In this document: positions 6,808-24,042 of the stretch, in pieces | Layout of the letters: every line of letters begins with the position of its first letter | Position numbering within the stretch: position 1 is the first letter of the stretch | DNA from: an uncultured Gammaproteobacteria bacterium | Lineage (GTDB): Bacteria; Pseudomonadota; Gammaproteobacteria; GCA-001735895 | Direction of reading: 5' to 3' | NCBI GenBank assembly: GCA_937984095.1 | Contig: CALJYH010000108.1 | Span: 1 to 41,155, forward strand | DNA: 41,155 bases | Notes under the pieces: model-generated | What the model saw: only the letters and a program-made list of their open reading frames with translations | What the model was told of the DNA's origin: nothing | Databases searched by the model: none | Translations under genes and position numbers: made by a program

Positions 6808-6822
6808 CACCTTTTTAAGGTG
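6808..6822. promoter_or_regulatory. Short perfect palindrome at predicted transcript start
   Basis: CACCTT and AAGGTG flank a three-base TTT spacer right at the predicted transcription start of the amidotransferase gene. It could be a second operator or a small 5' stem. The evidence is symmetry and position only. Confidence 0.25.
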
Positions 6823-6894
6823 CGTGCGCGAATTTGTGCTGGCGATAAAACTGGTGGTGGTATATTTGCGCGCTTAACGAACGGGAAAAAGCTC

Positions 6895-7647
6895 ATGAAA
6901 ATCGGAATACTCGAAGCCGGACTGCTACGTGAAGAAATGGCCGCTCGTTTCGATCCCTACCCAGTCATGTTTGAACGCTTTATTGGGGTCTCCGGGCATG
7001 ATTTCGAATTCGAGTCATTTTGCGTGATAGAAGGGGAAATGCCGGCATCGATCAACATATGCGATGGCTGGTTGATTACCGGCTCACGGCATGGTGTTTA
7101 CGATAACCTTGACTGGATGTTTCCACTGGAGGATTTTATTCGCCAGCTGGCAGGCACTGAAATTCCGCTAATCGGAGTATGCTTTGGCCACCAGATCATT
7201 GCCCAGGCGCTGGGTGGCGAGGTCGTCAAATCGGATAAAGGCTGGGGCGTTGGTCTGCACCGATATCGTATCGATCAGACGCATTCCTGGATGGGCAACG
7301 GATTGCTACAGGTCGGAATCTATGCCTTCCATCAGGACCAGGTAGTAAAGCTCCCTGATTCAGCCGAGGTATTTTCAAGCTCTGATTTTTGTCCGTACGC
7401 GGGTCTCAGCTACGGTAATTCGATTATAAGTTTGCAAGCTCACCCCGAATTTGAAGAGGACTATGAAATTGCACTGCTCGAAGCCTATGGGGGAACCGTG
7501 GTGCCTCAGGAGGTGGCACAACAGGCGCTTGATTCGATGAGTGGTGGTAATACGGAAGACAGGCAGGTGCTCGCTAGCTGGTTCGCCGAGTTTTTCCGGT
7601 CGCGCCAGCGCCGTCAGCAAACCGACCAGTCCAGGCAAGCGCAATAG
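6895..7647 (+). CDS. Class I glutamine amidotransferase-like protein
   Basis: A 250-residue stand-alone glutamine amidotransferase domain of the GMP-synthase type. The nucleophile is Cys96 in GVCFGHQ, and the His-Glu pair is His183 and Glu185 in QAHPEFEEDY. GSRHGVYD (about 63-70) contributes the oxyanion region. The ATG at 6895 was chosen because homology begins there (MKIGILEAG), a purine-rich GGGAAAAAG lies upstream, and the longer frame from 6820 would add an unrelated 25 residues. It is divergent from gntR and probably in its regulon. In an amine cluster with a gamma-glutamyl-amine ligase, hydrolysis of a gamma-glutamyl amide (a PuuD-like job) is a reasonable guess, although the sequence is not PuuD-like overall. 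It runs convergent with the next gene, 27 bases apart. Confidence 0.85.
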   Translation: MKIGILEAGLLREEMAARFDPYPVMFERFIGVSGHDFEFESFCVIEGEMPASINICDGWLITGSRHGVYDNLDWMFPLEDFIRQLAGTEIPLIGVCFGHQIIAQALGGEVVKSDKGWGVGLHRYRIDQTHSWMGNGLLQVGIYAFHQDQVVKLPDSAEVFSSSDFCPYAGLSYGNSIISLQAHPEFEEDYEIALLEAYGGTVVPQEVAQQALDSMSGGNTEDRQVLASWFAEFFRSRQRRQQTDQSRQAQ

Positions 7648-7674: not shown

Positions 7675-9429
7675 TTACGATTGGGCCTGGATCGGTTTTT
7701 CGAGCTGTGCAATAAGAAAGTCTTCAAACTCTGTACGCGGCATGGGCTTGCCAAAAAAGTAACCCTGTACAAAATCGCAGTTGAGTGACCTCAGGAATTC
7801 CCACTGCTCGGCGGTTTCCACGCCTTCAGCGATAACCTCGAGGCGTAATCCCTGGGCCATCGCGATGATTGCCTGCACCAGGACTGCATTTTCCTTATCA
7901 CCAGGCAGGTCCATAATAAAGCTGCGATCGATTTTTACGGTATTTACCGGATAATTCTTCAAATAGCTGAGTGCGGAAAATCCGGTGCCGAAGTCATCCA
8001 CCGAAAGCCTGACACCGCATTTACTGATTTCGTTAATATAGGTATTAACTTCGGGCGAGTCATCCAGTAACAGGCCTTCGGTGATTTCCACTTCGAGTAA
8101 ATCCGGGTTCCATGCGTACGTTTCGAGCTGTTCCTTTATCGTGTCAAACAACAGATTGTTGCGGAACTGGATCGACGATGCATTAACCGCAATACGCAAG
8201 CCGGTACCAAACTGCTTATTCCAGTGAGCCCCGGTTTCAATTGCCTTTTTTAACACCCAGCAACCGAGTTCGGGTATCAAACCGGCACTTTCCGCGGCAG
8301 GAATGAATTCGTCGGGAAATACCTGCCCAAGATTTGCACTCTCCCACCGCAGTAAAGCTTCTGCCGAAACGACCTGGCCGGACGCGGCATCGACGATGGG
8401 TTGGAAAAATACGGTGAACTCGTCGTTGGGTAGTGCCTTGCGCAGGTTATCCTGGAGTTCGCGTTGGCGATGCGCCTTAATGTTGATATCTTCGGTAAAA
8501 AAGCGAAAGGTATTCTTGCCCTGGTTCTTGGCCTGGTACATGGCCTGGTCGGCATGGTGTAACAGGGTTTCGACGTCGTCGCCATGATCCGGGTAGAGCG
8601 CAATGCCGATACTCGCACCGACCGTAATATTGTGTCCCTTGAAATCTAGTGGGAGCGAGGCTTCGGTGAGCAGCTTTTCAATCTTGGTAATCAGTGTTGT
8701 TTCGCTATCGATGTCGGTCAACAACACGATGAACTCATCTCCGCCAATTCTGGCGACGGAATCGGTCTGACGCACGATACCTCTGAAGTTGTCGGCGACC
8801 TGGGTTAACAGCTTATCGCCCGCTTCGTGGCCGAAGTGATCGTTAACATGCTTGAATCCATCGAGGTCAACGTAGATAACGGCACTTGAGAAATTATAAC
8901 GCCGTGAGCGGTAAATCAATTCGCTGAGTTCTTCGTACAGGCCCCGTCGATTCGACAGGTTGGTCAGGGGGTCATGGGTCGCCAGATGTTCGACGCGATG
9001 CTCGGCTGCGCGACGTTGTTCAACCTCCAGTTCAAGACCATGTCGCAGTGACCAGAGATCGAGAAATACAAGAACCTTGGAGATTAGTACTGTTTTGCGA
9101 ATGGGTTTTTCGATATAGTCGACCGCTCCCGAGAGATAGGCCTTTTCAATCTGGCCGTCATCCTGGGTAGCCGTAATGAATATGATCGGTATCGATCGTG
9201 TTCTTTCATTTTCATTTAGTAGCCTGGCCACCTCGAACCCGTCCATTACGGGCATCTGCACGTCAAGCAGAATCAGCGCAATATGATCTTCATGCTCTTC
9301 CGCGGCCAACAGGGCCTGTTCACCGGATTCGGCCGTAATGATGTTGGCATCGATCGGTTTCAACAGCACCTGCAGCGCAACCAGGTTGGCCTTGGTGTCG
9401 TCGACGATAAGAATCTTGGCTTCAGGCAT
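7675..9429 (-). CDS. Response regulator with REC, GGDEF and EAL domains
   Basis: A 584-residue soluble regulator of cyclic-di-GMP. REC domain 1-125 has the acidic pair Asp10/Asp11, phospho-acceptor Asp56 (LILLDVQMP), Thr86 and Lys108 (EKPI), so it looks phosphorylatable. GGDEF domain about 145-312 has DLDGFKHVND, an intact GGDEF at 229-233 and the inhibitory-site RxxD at 220-223, five residues before it. EAL domain about 325-575 keeps E357 (EALLRW), Asn416 (NAS), EITEG, DDFGTG, KIDRSF and AEGVET, so all catalytic carboxylates appear present. Synthesis and hydrolysis therefore both look possible, with phosphorylation choosing. No histidine kinase gene is adjacent. It is divergent from the degenerate paralogue at 9666, sharing a 236-base intergenic region. 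Confidence 0.93.
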   Translation of the reverse strand: MPEAKILIVDDTKANLVALQVLLKPIDANIITAESGEQALLAAEEHEDHIALILLDVQMPVMDGFEVARLLNENERTRSIPIIFITATQDDGQIEKAYLSGAVDYIEKPIRKTVLISKVLVFLDLWSLRHGLELEVEQRRAAEHRVEHLATHDPLTNLSNRRGLYEELSELIYRSRRYNFSSAVIYVDLDGFKHVNDHFGHEAGDKLLTQVADNFRGIVRQTDSVARIGGDEFIVLLTDIDSETTLITKIEKLLTEASLPLDFKGHNITVGASIGIALYPDHGDDVETLLHHADQAMYQAKNQGKNTFRFFTEDINIKAHRQRELQDNLRKALPNDEFTVFFQPIVDAASGQVVSAEALLRWESANLGQVFPDEFIPAAESAGLIPELGCWVLKKAIETGAHWNKQFGTGLRIAVNASSIQFRNNLLFDTIKEQLETYAWNPDLLEVEITEGLLLDDSPEVNTYINEISKCGVRLSVDDFGTGFSALSYLKNYPVNTVKIDRSFIMDLPGDKENAVLVQAIIAMAQGLRLEVIAEGVETAEQWEFLRSLNCDFVQGYFFGKPMPRTEFEDFLIAQLEKPIQAQS

Positions 9430-9665
9430 TATTTGTTTTAACTAACCATGCGTATAGTCCAGGCCGCCAGTACTGGGTTGCTGGCAGTCGTTTGCTTAGC
9501 GCTTTTATCGGCATATTCATATAAATATTAAGTTTTCTGACTATATAGAGACTTATTCCAGGTTGAGGACCGGAGTAACCAGATTTGCTGGCCAATATTG
9601 CGATCGATGCTAAAGCATCTGCTTTCTTCAACTATAGTCTGCTGATTACCCTTAATTTATAGTCA

Positions 9666-10802
9666 ATGTCTGAGCAAAAAGAGAAACCTACAATCCTGCT
9701 GGTTGCGAGTTCGGCACACAGCATCAAGCTGGTTAGCAAGCATTTGCAGAAACATTTCGCGCTGCTAACGGCCGAGGATGCAGAAGCAGCCTGGGATTCG
9801 CTACTGAAGGATCGCGAGATTGTGCTGGTTATTTGCGAGCTGGAAATAATGATTAATCAATTCGGCCTGCTCGAAAGAATCCGTAGTGCCGGCGACAGTT
9901 GGCTTGCGGCAACTCCGATACTGTTACTGGTTGGGGAAAACGACGCAGACGCGGGACGTGAGCTTGCTTTTCAGATGGGGGCGACCGACTTTATTAACCT
10001 TCCCTTCGCCAGTAGCGAGCTGACGGCCAGGGCACGCTTGCACGCAAACCTTTACTTGCAACACTCGATGGAATCACCCGAGGAAATGCAACAGGTTTCC
10101 GCGGCCAACCTGTTACAGCAATTATCACAAACCAACTTCTTTAATTCACGTGCACACCAGGAATTATCTTTTGCGCAACGCCATCGGGGTAATTTTAGCC
10201 TGTGTAAGCTCAAGCTCGACAATGTCAAGTCGATTATGCAGAGCTTCGATAAAGCGAAAACAACTAGCATCGTAAAAGGGGTGGCCGGGATAATCCAGCA
10301 AACACTGCGTACAGAGGACACAGCGTGCTATCTCGGTAATGCCGAGTTTTACCTGCTGTATCCTGCAACCAACGGCATTGGGGCAACCGATGGCGTCAAC
10401 CGTATTCTAAAGCGAGTTTCCAGTTCCCAGATGCGTATTGATGACGTGCGGGTCAAGGTGACTTTAAGCGGAGCGGTATATAGCTGCCTGGCAACTGATA
10501 ACAGTGACCTCGAACAGATATATGCACGACTCGACGCCAGCCTGGAGCAGGCCCAATCTGCGGGTGGTAACCGGGTTGTCAGCTCATCGGCATCGAGTGA
10601 AGAGCGTCGTGTTTCGGTCGATCGAGCTTTAAAACTGATTGAGCAGGGTAGTACCGACGAGTTGACTTCGGATGCCGCACCATTGTTATTAAGTATTCTG
10701 CCACTGCTCGAATTTGCGGACGGGGTACTCAAGCTTGGGTTACGATCGGTCAACTCGAAACTTCGCGAAAAGCTCGATATCCTTTCTGGATCTGACTCTT
10801 AG
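9666..10802 (+). CDS. Degenerate REC plus degenerate GGDEF protein
   Basis: A 378-residue protein with the same plan as a REC-GGDEF response regulator but with key residues lost. In REC (8-130) the acidic pair is replaced (VASSAH), the acceptor Asp is Glu (ICELEIM, about 58), and the conserved Lys-Pro is Leu-Pro (INLPF). In the GGDEF-like domain (about 150-305) the signature is GNAEF (224-228) and DxDxFK has become KLDNVKS, so cyclase activity is not expected. The RxxD inhibitory-site motif (RTED, 215-218) is kept with the correct five-residue spacing. The last 60 residues are a helical tail with no recognised domain. The ATG at 9666 follows an AT-rich promoter region. Best reading: a phosphorylation-independent c-di-GMP-binding or partner protein, perhaps for the divergent REC-GGDEF-EAL gene. 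Confidence 0.85.
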   Translation: MSEQKEKPTILLVASSAHSIKLVSKHLQKHFALLTAEDAEAAWDSLLKDREIVLVICELEIMINQFGLLERIRSAGDSWLAATPILLLVGENDADAGRELAFQMGATDFINLPFASSELTARARLHANLYLQHSMESPEEMQQVSAANLLQQLSQTNFFNSRAHQELSFAQRHRGNFSLCKLKLDNVKSIMQSFDKAKTTSIVKGVAGIIQQTLRTEDTACYLGNAEFYLLYPATNGIGATDGVNRILKRVSSSQMRIDDVRVKVTLSGAVYSCLATDNSDLEQIYARLDASLEQAQSAGGNRVVSSSASSEERRVSVDRALKLIEQGSTDELTSDAAPLLLSILPLLEFADGVLKLGLRSVNSKLREKLDILSGSDS

Positions 10803-10899
10803 TAATAGTTGCAATTTGAAACTATATATTGCCGGTAGAGTCAAATTATTATAGTGTTAGGAACTGCTTAATCGACCCTAAAATGTTCGAGTTTCCCGA

Positions 10900-13416
10900 A
10901 TGAATATTCTGCTCCTGTTGGGTGCCCTGTTTGCATTGTTTTATGCGATCGCCCGGCATCAAATTCCGTTTCGTACCCTGGCCTTGATGACCCTGTTCTT
11001 TCTCGTGATATTTACACTTGCGGGCGGGTTCAGTTTCTTTTGGGGGCTGATATTCTGGACCGCGTTTCTGGTACCTGCGGTGCTACTTGGATTGCCGCAC
11101 ATTCGCCAGCAGTTCCTGACCCGTCCTTTACTGCATCGCATACGCAAGATACTGCCGCCGATGTCCGAAACAGAACGTGATGCTATCGAGGCTGGCAACA
11201 TCTGGTGGGAAGCGGAATTGTTTCGAGGCGCCCCCGACTGGCAGCTGTTAAAGAATTACAGATTGCCCGTGTTAAGCGACGAAGAGCGGGCTTTTATCGA
11301 GGGCCCGGTAGAACAGCTGTGCGCGATGATCGACGACTGGGACATCACTCACAAACGACTGGACCTTCCTCCAGAGGTTTGGGCGTTTTTGAAGCAGCAT
11401 CGTTTTTTCGGCATGATCATTCCCAGGCACTACGGGGGTCTCGAATTCTCGGCCTACGGTCATTCGGCCGTGGTGACAAAAATAGCGTCACGCAGTATTA
11501 CAGCCGGGGTCACCGTCATGGTCCCGAATTCACTCGGTCCGGCCGAGCTGTTGTTACATTATGGAACCGATGAACAAAAGGATTATTACCTGCCGCGACT
11601 GGCCGATGGACGTGAAATTCCCTGTTTTGCATTAACCGGGCCGTTTGCTGGTTCTGATGCCGGGGCTATACCCGACCACGGCGTGGTCTGCATGGGGGAT
11701 CATGAGGGCAAGCAGGTACTCGGTTTACGTCTCAACTGGGAGAAGCGCTATATCACGCTCGGTCCGGTAGCAACTGTGCTGGGTCTCGCATTCAAGGCTT
11801 TCGATCCCGACGGCTTGCTTGGCGACGAGGAAGAACTCGGAGTCACCTGCGCCTTGATCCCGTCCGACACTCCCGGGATTACGATTGGTAAACGACATTT
11901 CCCGCTAAACGTTGCGTTCCAGAATGGGCCTAATAGTGGCAAAGATGTATTCATCCCCCTGGAATACGTCATCGGTGGGCAACAGAATATCGGCAACGGC
12001 TGGCGTATGCTGGTGGAATCCTTATCGGTCGGACGCGGTATCTCACTGCCAGCAGTTGGCGTGGCGGCAGGTAAGGCAAGCGTCCGCACTACCGGCGCCT
12101 ATGCCCACGTGCGCAAGCAGTTCAACACCTCGATCGGCAAATTTGAAGGTGTCGAAGAAGCACTCGCCCGAATCGGCGGCATGACATACATGATGGAAGC
12201 AGGACGACTGCTGACCCTGAGCGCACTCGATAGCGGTGAGAAACCTTCGGTCATTACCGCGATACTTAAATACTACAATACCGAGCACATGCGCCAGGTC
12301 GTCAATGACTCAATGGATATACACGGGGGCCGGGGTATCTGTATCGGGCCTACCAATTACATCGCCCGTGCCTACCAGTCTATCCCGGTCGGGATCACGG
12401 TCGAGGGCGCCAACATACTGACCCGCAGCATGATTATTTTCGGGCAGGGTGCTATCCGTTGCCATCCCTTTCTGATGGCCGAGATGCAAGCCGCGATGAT
12501 GGAAGACCAGTTGGACGCGGAAGATGCTTTCGATAAGGCATTACGTGGCCATGCAGAGTACTTTTTAACCAATTTCTGCCGTGCCTTCGTTTATGGAATC
12601 AGTGGTAGCCATTTGGCGCCAGCACCCTACCCGGGTCGCATCGGTGACTACTACCAGCGTCTGGGCCAGATGAGCGCGGCGTTTGCTGTATGCGCTGACC
12701 TCGTGTTAATGGTTTTGGGCGGTTCTTTCAAACGCAAGGAAATGCTTTCTGGTCGATTTGCTGACGCACTGGGTTACATGTTCTACGCCTCGGCCGCGTT
12801 GAAAAAATTTGATGCCGATGGCCAGCCGCGAAACGATTTACCGCTGGTTGAGTGGTCAACCAAGTACTGCCTCTACCAGGTACAGATGGCGCTTGACGAG
12901 ATTTTGCGCAATTTTCCAATAAAGTGGTTGGGTGTACTGGTGCGTCATACCATATTTCCGCTGGGACTCAATTTGCGTCAACCAAACGACTCGCTCAGTC
13001 ATCGGGTTGCAGCCCTGGTGATCAGGCCGGGAGAAGCGCGTGATCGATTAACCGCGGGCATCTATAGTACCGATGACCCGAATGATATAACCGGTTGTCT
13101 CGAGGATGCGCTGCACAAGGTGATAAAGGCGGAACCAATCGAACGACGTCTGCGCCACGACCAGCTGGAACAACACGGACTTGAAGATTACCAGCAGTGG
13201 GTTGGCAGGCTCAAACAATCGGGTCAGGTTTCAGCCGAGGAAGCTGATATACTGCTGCAGGCTCGGGCAGCGACGACAAGGGTTATCATGGTGGATGACT
13301 TTACGACCGACGAGATGACAAATAAAATGAGCGCATCTAAAAGGGCCGCGCCGAAAAAAAAGGCGGTAAAGCCATCGAAGAAAAAGGCTGTAAAAAAGAA
13401 ACCGACAGCTAAATAG
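10900..13416 (+). CDS. fadE: Acyl-CoA dehydrogenase FadE with lysine-rich tail
   Basis: An 838-residue FadE-type acyl-CoA dehydrogenase (E. coli FadE is 814), catalysing the first, FAD-dependent step of fatty acid beta-oxidation. Residues 3-66 hold two or three hydrophobic segments that anchor it to the membrane. The dehydrogenase core follows, with FAD and substrate segments such as CFALTGPFAGSDAGA, SVGRGISLPA, DIHGGRGICIGP and GITVEGANILTRS. A FadE-specific C-terminal domain runs to about 809. Residues 810-838 are an extra tail rich in Lys, Ala and Pro (AAPKKKAV, PSKKKAVKKK), resembling histone-H1-like or AlgP repeats and not part of the usual enzyme. The tail is encoded across an A8 run. 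fadD follows in the same direction after 70 bases, so the two probably share a transcript. Confidence 0.95.
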   Translation: MNILLLLGALFALFYAIARHQIPFRTLALMTLFFLVIFTLAGGFSFFWGLIFWTAFLVPAVLLGLPHIRQQFLTRPLLHRIRKILPPMSETERDAIEAGNIWWEAELFRGAPDWQLLKNYRLPVLSDEERAFIEGPVEQLCAMIDDWDITHKRLDLPPEVWAFLKQHRFFGMIIPRHYGGLEFSAYGHSAVVTKIASRSITAGVTVMVPNSLGPAELLLHYGTDEQKDYYLPRLADGREIPCFALTGPFAGSDAGAIPDHGVVCMGDHEGKQVLGLRLNWEKRYITLGPVATVLGLAFKAFDPDGLLGDEEELGVTCALIPSDTPGITIGKRHFPLNVAFQNGPNSGKDVFIPLEYVIGGQQNIGNGWRMLVESLSVGRGISLPAVGVAAGKASVRTTGAYAHVRKQFNTSIGKFEGVEEALARIGGMTYMMEAGRLLTLSALDSGEKPSVITAILKYYNTEHMRQVVNDSMDIHGGRGICIGPTNYIARAYQSIPVGITVEGANILTRSMIIFGQGAIRCHPFLMAEMQAAMMEDQLDAEDAFDKALRGHAEYFLTNFCRAFVYGISGSHLAPAPYPGRIGDYYQRLGQMSAAFAVCADLVLMVLGGSFKRKEMLSGRFADALGYMFYASAALKKFDADGQPRNDLPLVEWSTKYCLYQVQMALDEILRNFPIKWLGVLVRHTIFPLGLNLRQPNDSLSHRVAALVIRPGEARDRLTAGIYSTDDPNDITGCLEDALHKVIKAEPIERRLRHDQLEQHGLEDYQQWVGRLKQSGQVSAEEADILLQARAATTRVIMVDDFTTDEMTNKMSASKRAAPKKKAVKPSKKKAVKKKPTAK
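13356..13362 (+). other. Slippery heptamer in fadE tail
   Basis: Eight A residues (13354-13361) followed by G encode Lys819-821 of FadE, giving A AAA AAG in the reading frame. This is the same heptamer as the dnaX frameshift site. A -1 shift would give about 16 different, non-basic residues ending near the normal stop, and a +1 shift would stop after one codon. Whether slippage occurs is unknown; no obvious stimulatory stem was identified. Confidence 0.35.
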
Positions 13417-21309: not shown

Positions 21310-24042
21310 TTGCTCTCGCGTCTCTACAGTTTCAAATTCATCATCGGTTTCGCCCTGCTTTGGCTGGGTGCGTTAGCTTATGGTTTGGCGATTTATAGTA
21401 CCCACGTATATCGCGATCAGGCAATTGAGTCTCAGGTCATATCGATCCAGTCATTGCTCGAACACGAAAGCAGGGAAGCCATCCAGCGACTTTACGATGA
21501 TCAGAAAGAGTTTGCCCTGAAGATACAGAGAGAAGCGTCATTTTTAAAAGCCCTTGATAGTCGTGATGTAGCCATGATGGAGGCTGGACTAAAGGAAAGT
21601 TTTAACCGTAAACAGGCATCCGCGGGCATTTTGAATTTGAAGTCAATTATCGTGCGCGATCTGTCCGGTGATATTTTTGCGCAAAGCTCCGATGATGGCT
21701 TGAACGGCTACGCCGGCTGTCCCAAGTTGTTAGAGTCAGTTGTTGGGACATTGATTCGGTTGTTAAAACCGAAATACTCACTATGCAATTTCGATGATCA
21801 GCTCCTGAGCGAGGTGCTGGTGCCGGTTGGTGCCCCGGAACCGAAGGCTTACCTGCATATTGTGGCTTATGCAATCGACGGTTTGAAAAGTGTAGAAAGA
21901 AATACCGGGGTTCCGTTAAGAGTAATCCACGGCTCAGGAGGCAGCCTCTATCAATCGGAGGACTGGGTAGATTTCGCGGCGGGTACACATTTATATCCGA
22001 GTTATAAGCTTTTTGCCGACGATGCATTTCTCGGCGCTACCATCAGCGCATCGGTTGACCAAAAACCTATCATCGAGCGGTTACGTGAAACGGAAACCAG
22101 TTTCTTCATCATAACTACAATCGCGACCGTATCGGCCCTGGTACTGGTGTTGATCTTGCTGAATCGAGCCTTCATGCCGATGAATAAGCTGCGTAACTCA
22201 GTGGGCGCATTGTTAACTGGAAAGTATGCGTCAATTAGCGAAGAAAAATTGCCCAGTGAATTAAAAGACCTGGTCGTCGCCTATAACGAAATGGTAGAAG
22301 GCCTGGAGGTGGAAACCATTTCACGGCGGCAAATCGAGGAAAAGTTACGCTCGGAGAAAGATTTCATTTCAACCACGCTCGATTCGATTACCAACCCGGT
22401 AATCGTTATCGACTCCAAGGACCGAATAAAACTGGTTAATCCGAGCGCCGAAAAGTTGTTTGGCGACAGGGAGCCTGAACTGATCGACACCTCGATTCAC
22501 GAAATTCTGATCCTGTATGCAAACCGACAAACCACGCGCATTGTTGACCTGAACCAGCTGCTGAGTCGTAAACTCTCGATCAGCTCGATGTTTTTTTACG
22601 ATGCCGATCGCAATCTTGTCGAACTTGAATTTTCGGCATCTCCGATGATCGATATGGAAGCAGAGGATGTCGGTTTTGTTATTATTCTCAAGGATGTATC
22701 GGAGGACCGTAAGCTACGCCGTAAACTGAACTACGAGGGTAGCCACGATCAGCTTACCGGGTTTCTAAATCGCAACGCATTTGAACAAAAATTTGAAGGC
22801 CTTGTGACCGAGGATAGTAACACCACGGTTCAGCATGTATTCGCTTACCTCGATGTCGATCAGTTCAGAGTTGTCAATGAAACCTGTGGCAGTGCCGCCG
22901 GGGATCTGCTGTTGAAACAGATTAGTACCATGATCAAGAAGCATGTGCGTAAATCTGACATAGTGGCGCGTTTAAGTGGTGATGAGTTCGGCATCATCAT
23001 GCCCTTTTTTGAAATGGAGCGTGCCCTACAGACCATCCAGAAGATTATTATCGAGATACAGCATTCAGGTTTTATCTGGAATGATCAGGAGTACCAGGTT
23101 ACGGCGAGTATCGGAGTAATGGCCTTTGGGCGGATGAGCGATGAGTATGCCGAGTTTTACTCCAAGGTCACGACCGCCTGTTTCCTGGCCAAGCAAAATG
23201 GTGGTAATCAATACCACTTCATTGACGAAAACGATGAGAAGGTAATGGCGCAGCAGGTCTCCATGGAATGGGTTTCGGGCATCATGGAAGGCTTTTCCGA
23301 GGATCGCTTTTGTCTCTATGTACAACCCATCGTTTCTATCGACAAGGATGAGCAACATACCCACTACGAGGTTTTAATTCGTTACCGCAGTTCTGATGGC
23401 AGCATTATCTCCCCCAATGACTTTCTACCGCCCGCAGAACGCTATAATCTGATAGAACGCATCGACAGCTGGGTGATCGGTAGTGTTATCGAATGGCTGG
23501 AACAGCACCAGGAGAAAATGCGTGACGTGATGTTTTCCGTGAATCTTTCGGGACGCAGTATCGGCTCCCAGACCTTTCACAATTTCCTGCATGAGTCCCT
23601 GGCCTCAAGTGACATTAATAAGAGTTCATTGTGTTTTGAAATTACCGAAACCGCGGTTGTCGATAATGTCGAGCGTTCGGTGGAGTTCATCAACTCGATC
23701 AAGCAGCTTGGCGCCAAGTTTTCACTCGACGATTTTGGTACCGGGTTATCCTCCTTCAGCTATCTCAAACAGTTTCCGGTGGATTACCTGAAAATCGACG
23801 GCGAGTTTGTGCGCGATATTCTCGAAGATGACAAGAGTTTCGTATTCGTTCGCTCGATGACCGAAGTAGGGCACGCTCTTGACATGGAGGTTATTGCCGA
23901 GTTCGTCGAGTCGGATACGATGTTCGATAAGCTGCGCGAGGCTAATGTCGATTACATCCAGGGCTATACGGTCGGAAAACCGGTTGCAATTGAAACCTTG
24001 CTAGACGACCTCGATAAAGCCGATACTAAAAAAGTCGGATAA
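21310..24042 (+). CDS. Membrane HAMP-PAS-GGDEF-EAL cyclic-di-GMP enzyme
   Basis: A 910-residue sensor. Transmembrane 1 at about 8-30; periplasmic sensor domain 31-262 (two cysteines, 137 and 159, could form a disulfide); transmembrane 2 at about 264-285; HAMP about 286-340; PAS about 350-465; GGDEF about 475-640; EAL about 650-900. The cyclase signature is SGDEF (556-560), with the inhibitory-site RKSD at 547-550. The EAL domain has EVL at 687-689, Asn745, EITE 777-780, DDFGTG 807-812, KID 828-830 and AEFVES, so phosphodiesterase activity is likely; the usual AEGVE Gly is Phe. The start must be TTG 21310, since its frame is closed by a TGA at 21295. The small exported protein directly upstream may be its partner. 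Convergent with the SDR gene. Confidence 0.92.
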   Translation: MLSRLYSFKFIIGFALLWLGALAYGLAIYSTHVYRDQAIESQVISIQSLLEHESREAIQRLYDDQKEFALKIQREASFLKALDSRDVAMMEAGLKESFNRKQASAGILNLKSIIVRDLSGDIFAQSSDDGLNGYAGCPKLLESVVGTLIRLLKPKYSLCNFDDQLLSEVLVPVGAPEPKAYLHIVAYAIDGLKSVERNTGVPLRVIHGSGGSLYQSEDWVDFAAGTHLYPSYKLFADDAFLGATISASVDQKPIIERLRETETSFFIITTIATVSALVLVLILLNRAFMPMNKLRNSVGALLTGKYASISEEKLPSELKDLVVAYNEMVEGLEVETISRRQIEEKLRSEKDFISTTLDSITNPVIVIDSKDRIKLVNPSAEKLFGDREPELIDTSIHEILILYANRQTTRIVDLNQLLSRKLSISSMFFYDADRNLVELEFSASPMIDMEAEDVGFVIILKDVSEDRKLRRKLNYEGSHDQLTGFLNRNAFEQKFEGLVTEDSNTTVQHVFAYLDVDQFRVVNETCGSAAGDLLLKQISTMIKKHVRKSDIVARLSGDEFGIIMPFFEMERALQTIQKIIIEIQHSGFIWNDQEYQVTASIGVMAFGRMSDEYAEFYSKVTTACFLAKQNGGNQYHFIDENDEKVMAQQVSMEWVSGIMEGFSEDRFCLYVQPIVSIDKDEQHTHYEVLIRYRSSDGSIISPNDFLPPAERYNLIERIDSWVIGSVIEWLEQHQEKMRDVMFSVNLSGRSIGSQTFHNFLHESLASSDINKSSLCFEITETAVVDNVERSVEFINSIKQLGAKFSLDDFGTGLSSFSYLKQFPVDYLKIDGEFVRDILEDDKSFVFVRSMTEVGHALDMEVIAEFVESDTMFDKLREANVDYIQGYTVGKPVAIETLLDDLDKADTKKVG

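Follow-up and report, generated by a model that had tools for sequence, protein, structure and literature searches.

The window analysed here, a stretch of 41,155 nucleotides from an uncultured gammaproteobacterium, contains a gene for a receiver-GGDEF protein in which the residues of phosphorylation and of cyclase activity have been replaced. This raises the question of what function is left to such a protein. Because its active site and phosphorylation switch are lost while its c-di-GMP-binding site is kept, it is a probable c-di-GMP sensor, and we put at about 0.75 the probability of what its sequence suggests, a c-di-GMP receptor that is catalytically dead and works independently of phosphorylation. 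Table 1 gives the coordinates of the features discussed.

Table 1. Features of the focal gene and its neighbourhood, in window coordinates.
Feature	Position	Strand	Basis or remark
Class-I glutamine amidotransferase-type gene, far side of EAL gene	6820..7647	+	
REC-GGDEF-EAL gene, intact signatures; divergent neighbour, not obligate partner	7675..9429	-	Pfam 86, 172, 244 bits
Gap between divergent start codons, 236 bp	9430..9665	.	Geometry
Focal gene: pseudo-receiver, degenerate GGDEF, helical C-terminal tail	9666..10802	+	ATG start, 378 aa
Receiver domain without phosphorylation residues, residues about 8-125	9687..10040	+	A14-S15, E58, V89, L112
GGDEF domain, active site lost, residues about 147-306	10104..10583	+	Pfam, alignments, Z about 20-22 against GGDEF structures
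Arg172 codon, secondary I-site	10179..10181	+	Aligns with DgcR Arg163; role of WspR R198
R215-T-E-D218, primary I-site	10308..10319	+	Aligns with DgcR R206xxD209 and PleD RAID motif
Y222 codon	10329-10331	+	Position just ahead of signature
GNAEF, degenerate catalytic signature, residues 224-228	10335..10349	+	Sequence, family alignment
Arg246 codon	10401..10403	+	Aligns with DgcR R237 / PleD R390
C-terminal helical tail common to family, residues 315-378	10608..10799	+	Model, tail alignment
FadE-type acyl-CoA dehydrogenase gene, downstream neighbour	10900..13416	+	

The focal protein matches the Pfam GGDEF model at 50.4 bits over residues 153-303 (cut-off 23.8) and passes the cut-off of the NCBIfam GGDEF domain model TIGR00254; no NCBIfam equivalog model reached its cut-off against the protein. 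The Pfam model Response_reg scores 22.6 bits, under its cut-off of 30.2, and no Rfam model matched across the window. A model predicted by AlphaFold2 (mean pLDDT 80, pTM 0.48) has the expected fold with an uncertain domain arrangement. Single GGDEF domain structures fit it at about 2 Å rmsd, and WspR and PleD structures align to it with Z about 22 over both domains, in an arrangement that differs (rmsd 13-25 Å). The gene is under purifying selection, with whole-gene dN/dS of 0.10-0.19 in all six pairs compared. These values, and the absence of internal stops from the 14 same-genus orthologues, rule out a pseudogene or a gene in decay.

The initial annotation described the receiver as having lost its acidic pocket, its acceptor Asp (now Glu), and its Lys, and all of these losses were confirmed: A14-S15 replaces Asp-Asp, E58 stands at the acceptor position, and L112 occupies the place of the Lys. 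In addition, V89 is found where relatives have Thr. The focal receiver lacks, in sum, the set of residues (Asp-Asp pocket, acceptor Asp, Thr/Ser, and Lys) that marks a phosphorylatable response regulator. The same chemistry is lost in all 17 members of the window's branch, that is, 15 from the same genus (the window included) together with L033 and L150; only L022 among the seventeen has Asp at the acceptor place. Intact Asp-Asp, Asp, Thr, and Lys occur in 52 of 52 family members outside this branch, which therefore probably combine phosphorylation with c-di-GMP. Because the branch forms one clade with support 100/100 (14 of its 17 members are in the tree), loss of the receiver's chemistry happened a single time, in the common ancestor of the window's taxonomic family, and left the I-site in place. 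In five of six pairs the dead receiver is the most constrained part of the protein, with dN/dS of 0.03-0.16; the sixth pair has 0.18. A dead receiver so strongly constrained must therefore still do something, and the job retained by this pseudo-receiver is probably dimerisation or partner binding.

The catalytic signature of the GGDEF domain reads GNAEF, at G224-N-A-E-F228, exactly as first noticed. In the alignment, catalytic positions 183, 191, 200, 226, and 297 are all changed; in PleD these are metal ligands and guanine contacts. The acids of both metal ligands are replaced (A226 and K183), and the signature departs from the GG[DE]EF of an active cyclase. K442 and the A-site acids are mentioned in PMC3509222. 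Across the 62 non-redundant members of the family described below, the ordinary GGDEF residue is retained by none at N191 or G225, by 3 at K297, by 4 at G199, and by 18 at D183.

The I-site has been kept. The motif RTED had been placed exactly five residues ahead of the signature, and R215-T-E-D218 is separated from G224 by five residues. An alignment with DgcR (6zxm, solved with c-di-GMP) runs without a gap near the motif and pairs R215 and D218 with construct residues R226 and D229, which are DgcR R206 and D209; entries 6zxc and 6zxb, of I-site mutants, carry Ala at these two positions. Counted on the 6zxm alignment, R172 corresponds to DgcR R163 and R246 to DgcR R237, and the RAID motif of PleD likewise aligns gaplessly with R215-D218; the I-site geometry of the focal protein is read from these alignments, not from measured distances. 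In DgcR, as described in PMC8041772, a c-di-GMP dimer connects two subunits, bound by R206xxD209 on one side and by R163 on the other; R237, the counterpart of PleD R390, lies too far from the ligand to touch it in the crystal. The I-site of WspR employs R242 and R198 likewise, and the R242A and R198A mutants are reported to purify nucleotide-free (PMC2270323).

A search of 39 genomes, including the source genome, found 14 same-genus orthologues of the focal protein at 47-92% identity; no orthologue came from nine of the 23 further genomes of that genus, and several of the genomes are incomplete. The wider family was collected by a genome-collection scan and by a class-wide search of 369 genomes, about 69 of which had a match of at least 179 bits, with some of the lower-scoring matches ending before the tail; the best 30 loci of the class-wide search were taken, and 27 of them used. 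Its members join a receiver to a degenerate GGDEF domain, and most end in the C-terminal tail seen in the focal protein. From a set of 69 members, removal of 7 that were over 90% identical left 62 non-redundant sequences. L017, which ends at residue 290, was omitted from alignment A1 and from the tree; L056, an ordinary GGEEF protein, served as out-group and control and is not a family member; the fragment L059 and L029-L032, which are copies of genus loci or near relatives, were kept out of the family. Among the open-licence PMC papers searched, we found no description of this family, and the focal protein apparently belongs to a widespread and uncharacterised gammaproteobacterial family.

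Mean identity in the GGDEF domain among the 62 non-redundant members is 27%. No position of the domain is invariant other than Arg215 and Asp218 (62 of 62, in a set whose collecting profile contains RxxD and so gives RxxD members an advantage of a few bits; the lowest-scoring sequence included had 188 bits). The next most highly kept are Arg172 (60/62), Glu217 (58/62), and Arg246 (56/62). According to these alignments conservation in the domain is highest at the I-site as a whole, beyond RxxD alone, and this site matches the crystallographic I-site residues. Position 222 is Tyr in all 16 aligned rows of the focal branch, and Arg in 50 of 53 other rows and in 21 of 21 ordinary domains; c-di-GMP affinity could therefore differ in the focal branch.

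From the loss of the A-site, the loss of receiver chemistry, the selective retention of the I-site, and the selection acting on the gene, all of them read in the sequences themselves, we infer c-di-GMP binding, a subunit clamp, and output to a partner. An intercalated c-di-GMP dimer would bind R215 and D218 of one GGDEF domain, with R246 helping, and would also engage R172 of another, so that two subunits are clamped together in the manner of DgcR, PleD, and WspR. In this clamped state a protein-binding surface on the pseudo-receiver or on the C-terminal helical tail would be exposed or hidden, and this surface might pass the signal to a protein partner, candidates being BipA or, in genomes that have it alongside, the divergent EAL protein. 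In the window's taxonomic family c-di-GMP would be the only input; in the rest of the family phosphorylation of the intact receiver would come as a further one.

The pattern of signature and metal-ligand loss, RxxD spacing, and secondary arginine would place the focal protein in the class of degenerate-GGDEF I-site receptors. A likeness to PelD and PopA had been proposed at the outset; the working principle, an I-site kept beside a lost A-site, appears to be the same, but the focal protein has the architecture of neither. PopA of Caulobacter is described as a response-regulator-like c-di-GMP receptor with a degenerate GGDEF domain and an intact I-site (PMC10333796, PMC3509222). By that description, the only basis of the comparison, PopA has the layout REC-REC-GGDEF and takes part in cell-cycle proteolysis, whereas the focal protein has one dead receiver (residues 8-125) ahead of its GGDEF domain, not two, and a C-terminal tail behind it. 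PelD of Pseudomonas aeruginosa binds c-di-GMP through the RxxD of a degenerate GGDEF (PMC10333796). It differs, as described, in being membrane-integrated, in serving Pel export, and in having a GAF domain, in whose place the focal protein has a receiver; a search of the focal protein for a GAF domain gave no match up to E 1, and a receiver-like domain fills its N-terminal part.

Other comparisons extend the class. CdgA of Bdellovibrio has a dead GVNEF signature with RxxD five residues upstream, and is described as having no cyclase activity and as binding c-di-GMP with a Kd of about 2 uM (PMC3271064). It comes from another lineage and has, as described there, a polar role in predation; the comparison covers the GGDEF region only. 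SgmT and ActA of Myxococcus also combine a degenerate A-site with an intact I-site, ActA being a receiver plus such a GGDEF domain; SgmT differs in being a hybrid kinase, for which c-di-GMP binding has been demonstrated (PMC3509222). The I-site of SgmT binds c-di-GMP, yet its I-site mutants are described as having no motility or fruiting phenotype (PMC3509222), and binding alone would therefore not prove an important output. The closest solved relatives are DgcR of Leptospira, WspR, and PleD, which have the REC-GGDEF fold and the same I-site residues but are all, unlike the focal protein, active cyclases. The receptor side of c-di-GMP signalling is poorly mapped, and a family with the I-site as the only invariant feature of its domain is a clear candidate receptor set. 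The intact receivers of many of these candidates may integrate phosphorylation and c-di-GMP, and the focal branch would then offer a natural experiment, one of the two inputs having been taken away. The focal protein itself is a well-supported candidate for a receptor of a kind already known, here in a new form.

A more specific alternative makes the focal protein the sensor half of a two-gene unit, binding c-di-GMP and directly controlling the divergently encoded REC-GGDEF-EAL enzyme. The initial annotation had suggested such a sensor/enzyme pair, facing each other across a shared promoter region. The opposite-strand neighbour is, as claimed, an intact REC-GGDEF-EAL protein, with its GGDEF signature kept and an RQTD motif of its own. 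The shared promoter region survives as geometry only, in the spacing of the divergent starts; a consensus search of positions 9400-10920 for sigma-70-like promoters found none, against a mean of 2.1 in shuffles, a result that says little. Although the EAL gene adjoins the focal-gene orthologue in 10 of 14 same-genus cases, an adjacency held while the orthologues drift to about 50% identity, joint presence of the two genes is not conserved. The orthologue has no EAL gene beside it in genomes G007, G014, and G016 (the search for EAL orthologues elsewhere in the genomes of the genus covered G001-G014) or at the out-group loci L033 and L178, and in G017 it lies in another context. Conversely, in G012, a genome listed as 100% complete, the EAL gene stands next to fadE with no focal-gene orthologue beside it or elsewhere. 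The EAL protein, moreover, already has its own GGDEF and RxxD, and the whole block is syntenic across the genus, so that adjacency of the two genes may be simple inheritance.

The earliest branches of the tree are lineages without an adjacent EAL gene, and with them L033 and L178 (locus of L150), where the order is bipA, family gene, thioredoxin-like gene, thioesterase-like gene, fadE. Because the basal members and both of these out-groups lack the EAL gene at this place, it must be viewed as a late insertion; the adjacency to fadE is a remnant of an older block. An obligate pair is unsupported, each gene being found also alone, and the pair hypothesis as a whole, weak and only partly supported, is in our judgment unlikely to be correct. 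At the G012 locus (L176, about 9200-9390) the fadE and EAL frames lie about 180 bp apart, with no remnant of the focal gene by tblastn.

Control domains bear on another alternative, that folding or dimer contacts account for the retention of RxxD and its companion arginines, the protein being a ligand-free scaffold. A single RxxD is weak evidence, because about half of all GGDEF domains carry one: the frequency given in PMC3974145 is 44-57%, and RxxD occurs in 16 of the 21 other aligned GGDEF domains of the source genome (15 of 21 in a second alignment). Ordinary GGDEF domains have Arg at the first of these places in 17 of 21 cases and Asp at the second in 18 of 21. All four I-site residues occur together in 26 of 47 control domains as well, so the quartet alone is not diagnostic. 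What such a scaffold leaves unexplained is the invariance of RxxD in this family, together with a quartet present in 55 of 62 members versus 4 of 21 ordinary domains of the source genome. The GGDEF fold does not need RxxD, since degenerate-signature domains outside the family often lack it (it is present in 5 of 15, namely 3 of 9 from other bacteria and 2 of 6 from the source genome). By these counts, retention of RxxD is barely above chance for one protein and far above chance across the family; the diagnostic feature, as the alignments indicate, is I-site invariance beside a dead active site. We regard a ligand-free scaffold as quite improbable. That the focal protein might still be an active diguanylate cyclase despite its odd signature is scarcely credible, for while activity is described as possible in AGDEF and SGDEF proteins (PMC3974145), here Ala takes the third signature position (otherwise Asp/Glu), and replacements extend to the first metal Asp (183), Asn191, Asp200, and Lys297, so that metal ligands and guanine contacts are gone.

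For the preferred reading, a c-di-GMP receptor with output to a protein partner, the most interesting lead is linkage to bipA/typA, an older neighbour of the family gene than the EAL gene. Of 47 wider-family loci, 11 (10 of them distinct, and drawn from several clades) have it as the immediate upstream gene in the same orientation, with 3-172 nt between the open frames; some of the 47 end too soon for an upstream gene to be visible. The loci are L033:1586-3421, L178:4993-6867, L145:4790-6880, L036, L041/L186, L180, L183, L190, L194, and L196. In the source genome, bipA is on a different contig from the focal gene. BipA reportedly controls biofilm colony form in Vibrio cholerae, according to an eLife paper (PMC7886329), so that a link to c-di-GMP biology is at most plausible. 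If functional, the linkage would tie c-di-GMP to translation. A broader reading, which we offer as speculative and rather doubtful, is that these c-di-GMP receptors (receiver, GGDEF with an I-site only, and helical tail) form a gammaproteobacterial family, widespread but undescribed, that takes two inputs and was ancestrally coupled to BipA/TypA, and that the window's lineage has shed phosphorylation to become a pure sensor of c-di-GMP; were the coupling true, a ribosome-associated GTPase would link c-di-GMP to translation or ribosome assembly.

Matches of DgcR, WspR, and PleD to the focal protein stop near residue 310, ahead of the C-terminal tail. A sequence search of the PDB with the tail gave nothing convincing, the best match being to designed proteins at E 0.14, and a Pfam search found no family, with one weak match in 1 of 33 members at E 0.007. 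The tail alignment, A2, contains 33 of 55 listed tails.

Further GGDEF proteins were observed in the course of this work. The source genome has six more degenerate signatures (L122-L127: QGAEF, GSDKF, ERNLF, GAFSY, GQNGL, and NEDEF), the weaker of which may be misaligned. The window itself has another GGDEF protein, encoded by a 910 aa open reading frame at 21310-24042, whose signature is SGDEF with RKSD. A second receiver-GGDEF gene, resembling a tandem copy, lies directly upstream of the family member at L050:837-2195 and L053:6032-7162. Genes for HDOD-domain and leucine-rich/HEAT repeat proteins are found beside the family gene at L037-L040, L044, L049, L184, and L185, in a single group of genomes, some of which are labelled Ectothiorhodospiraceae.
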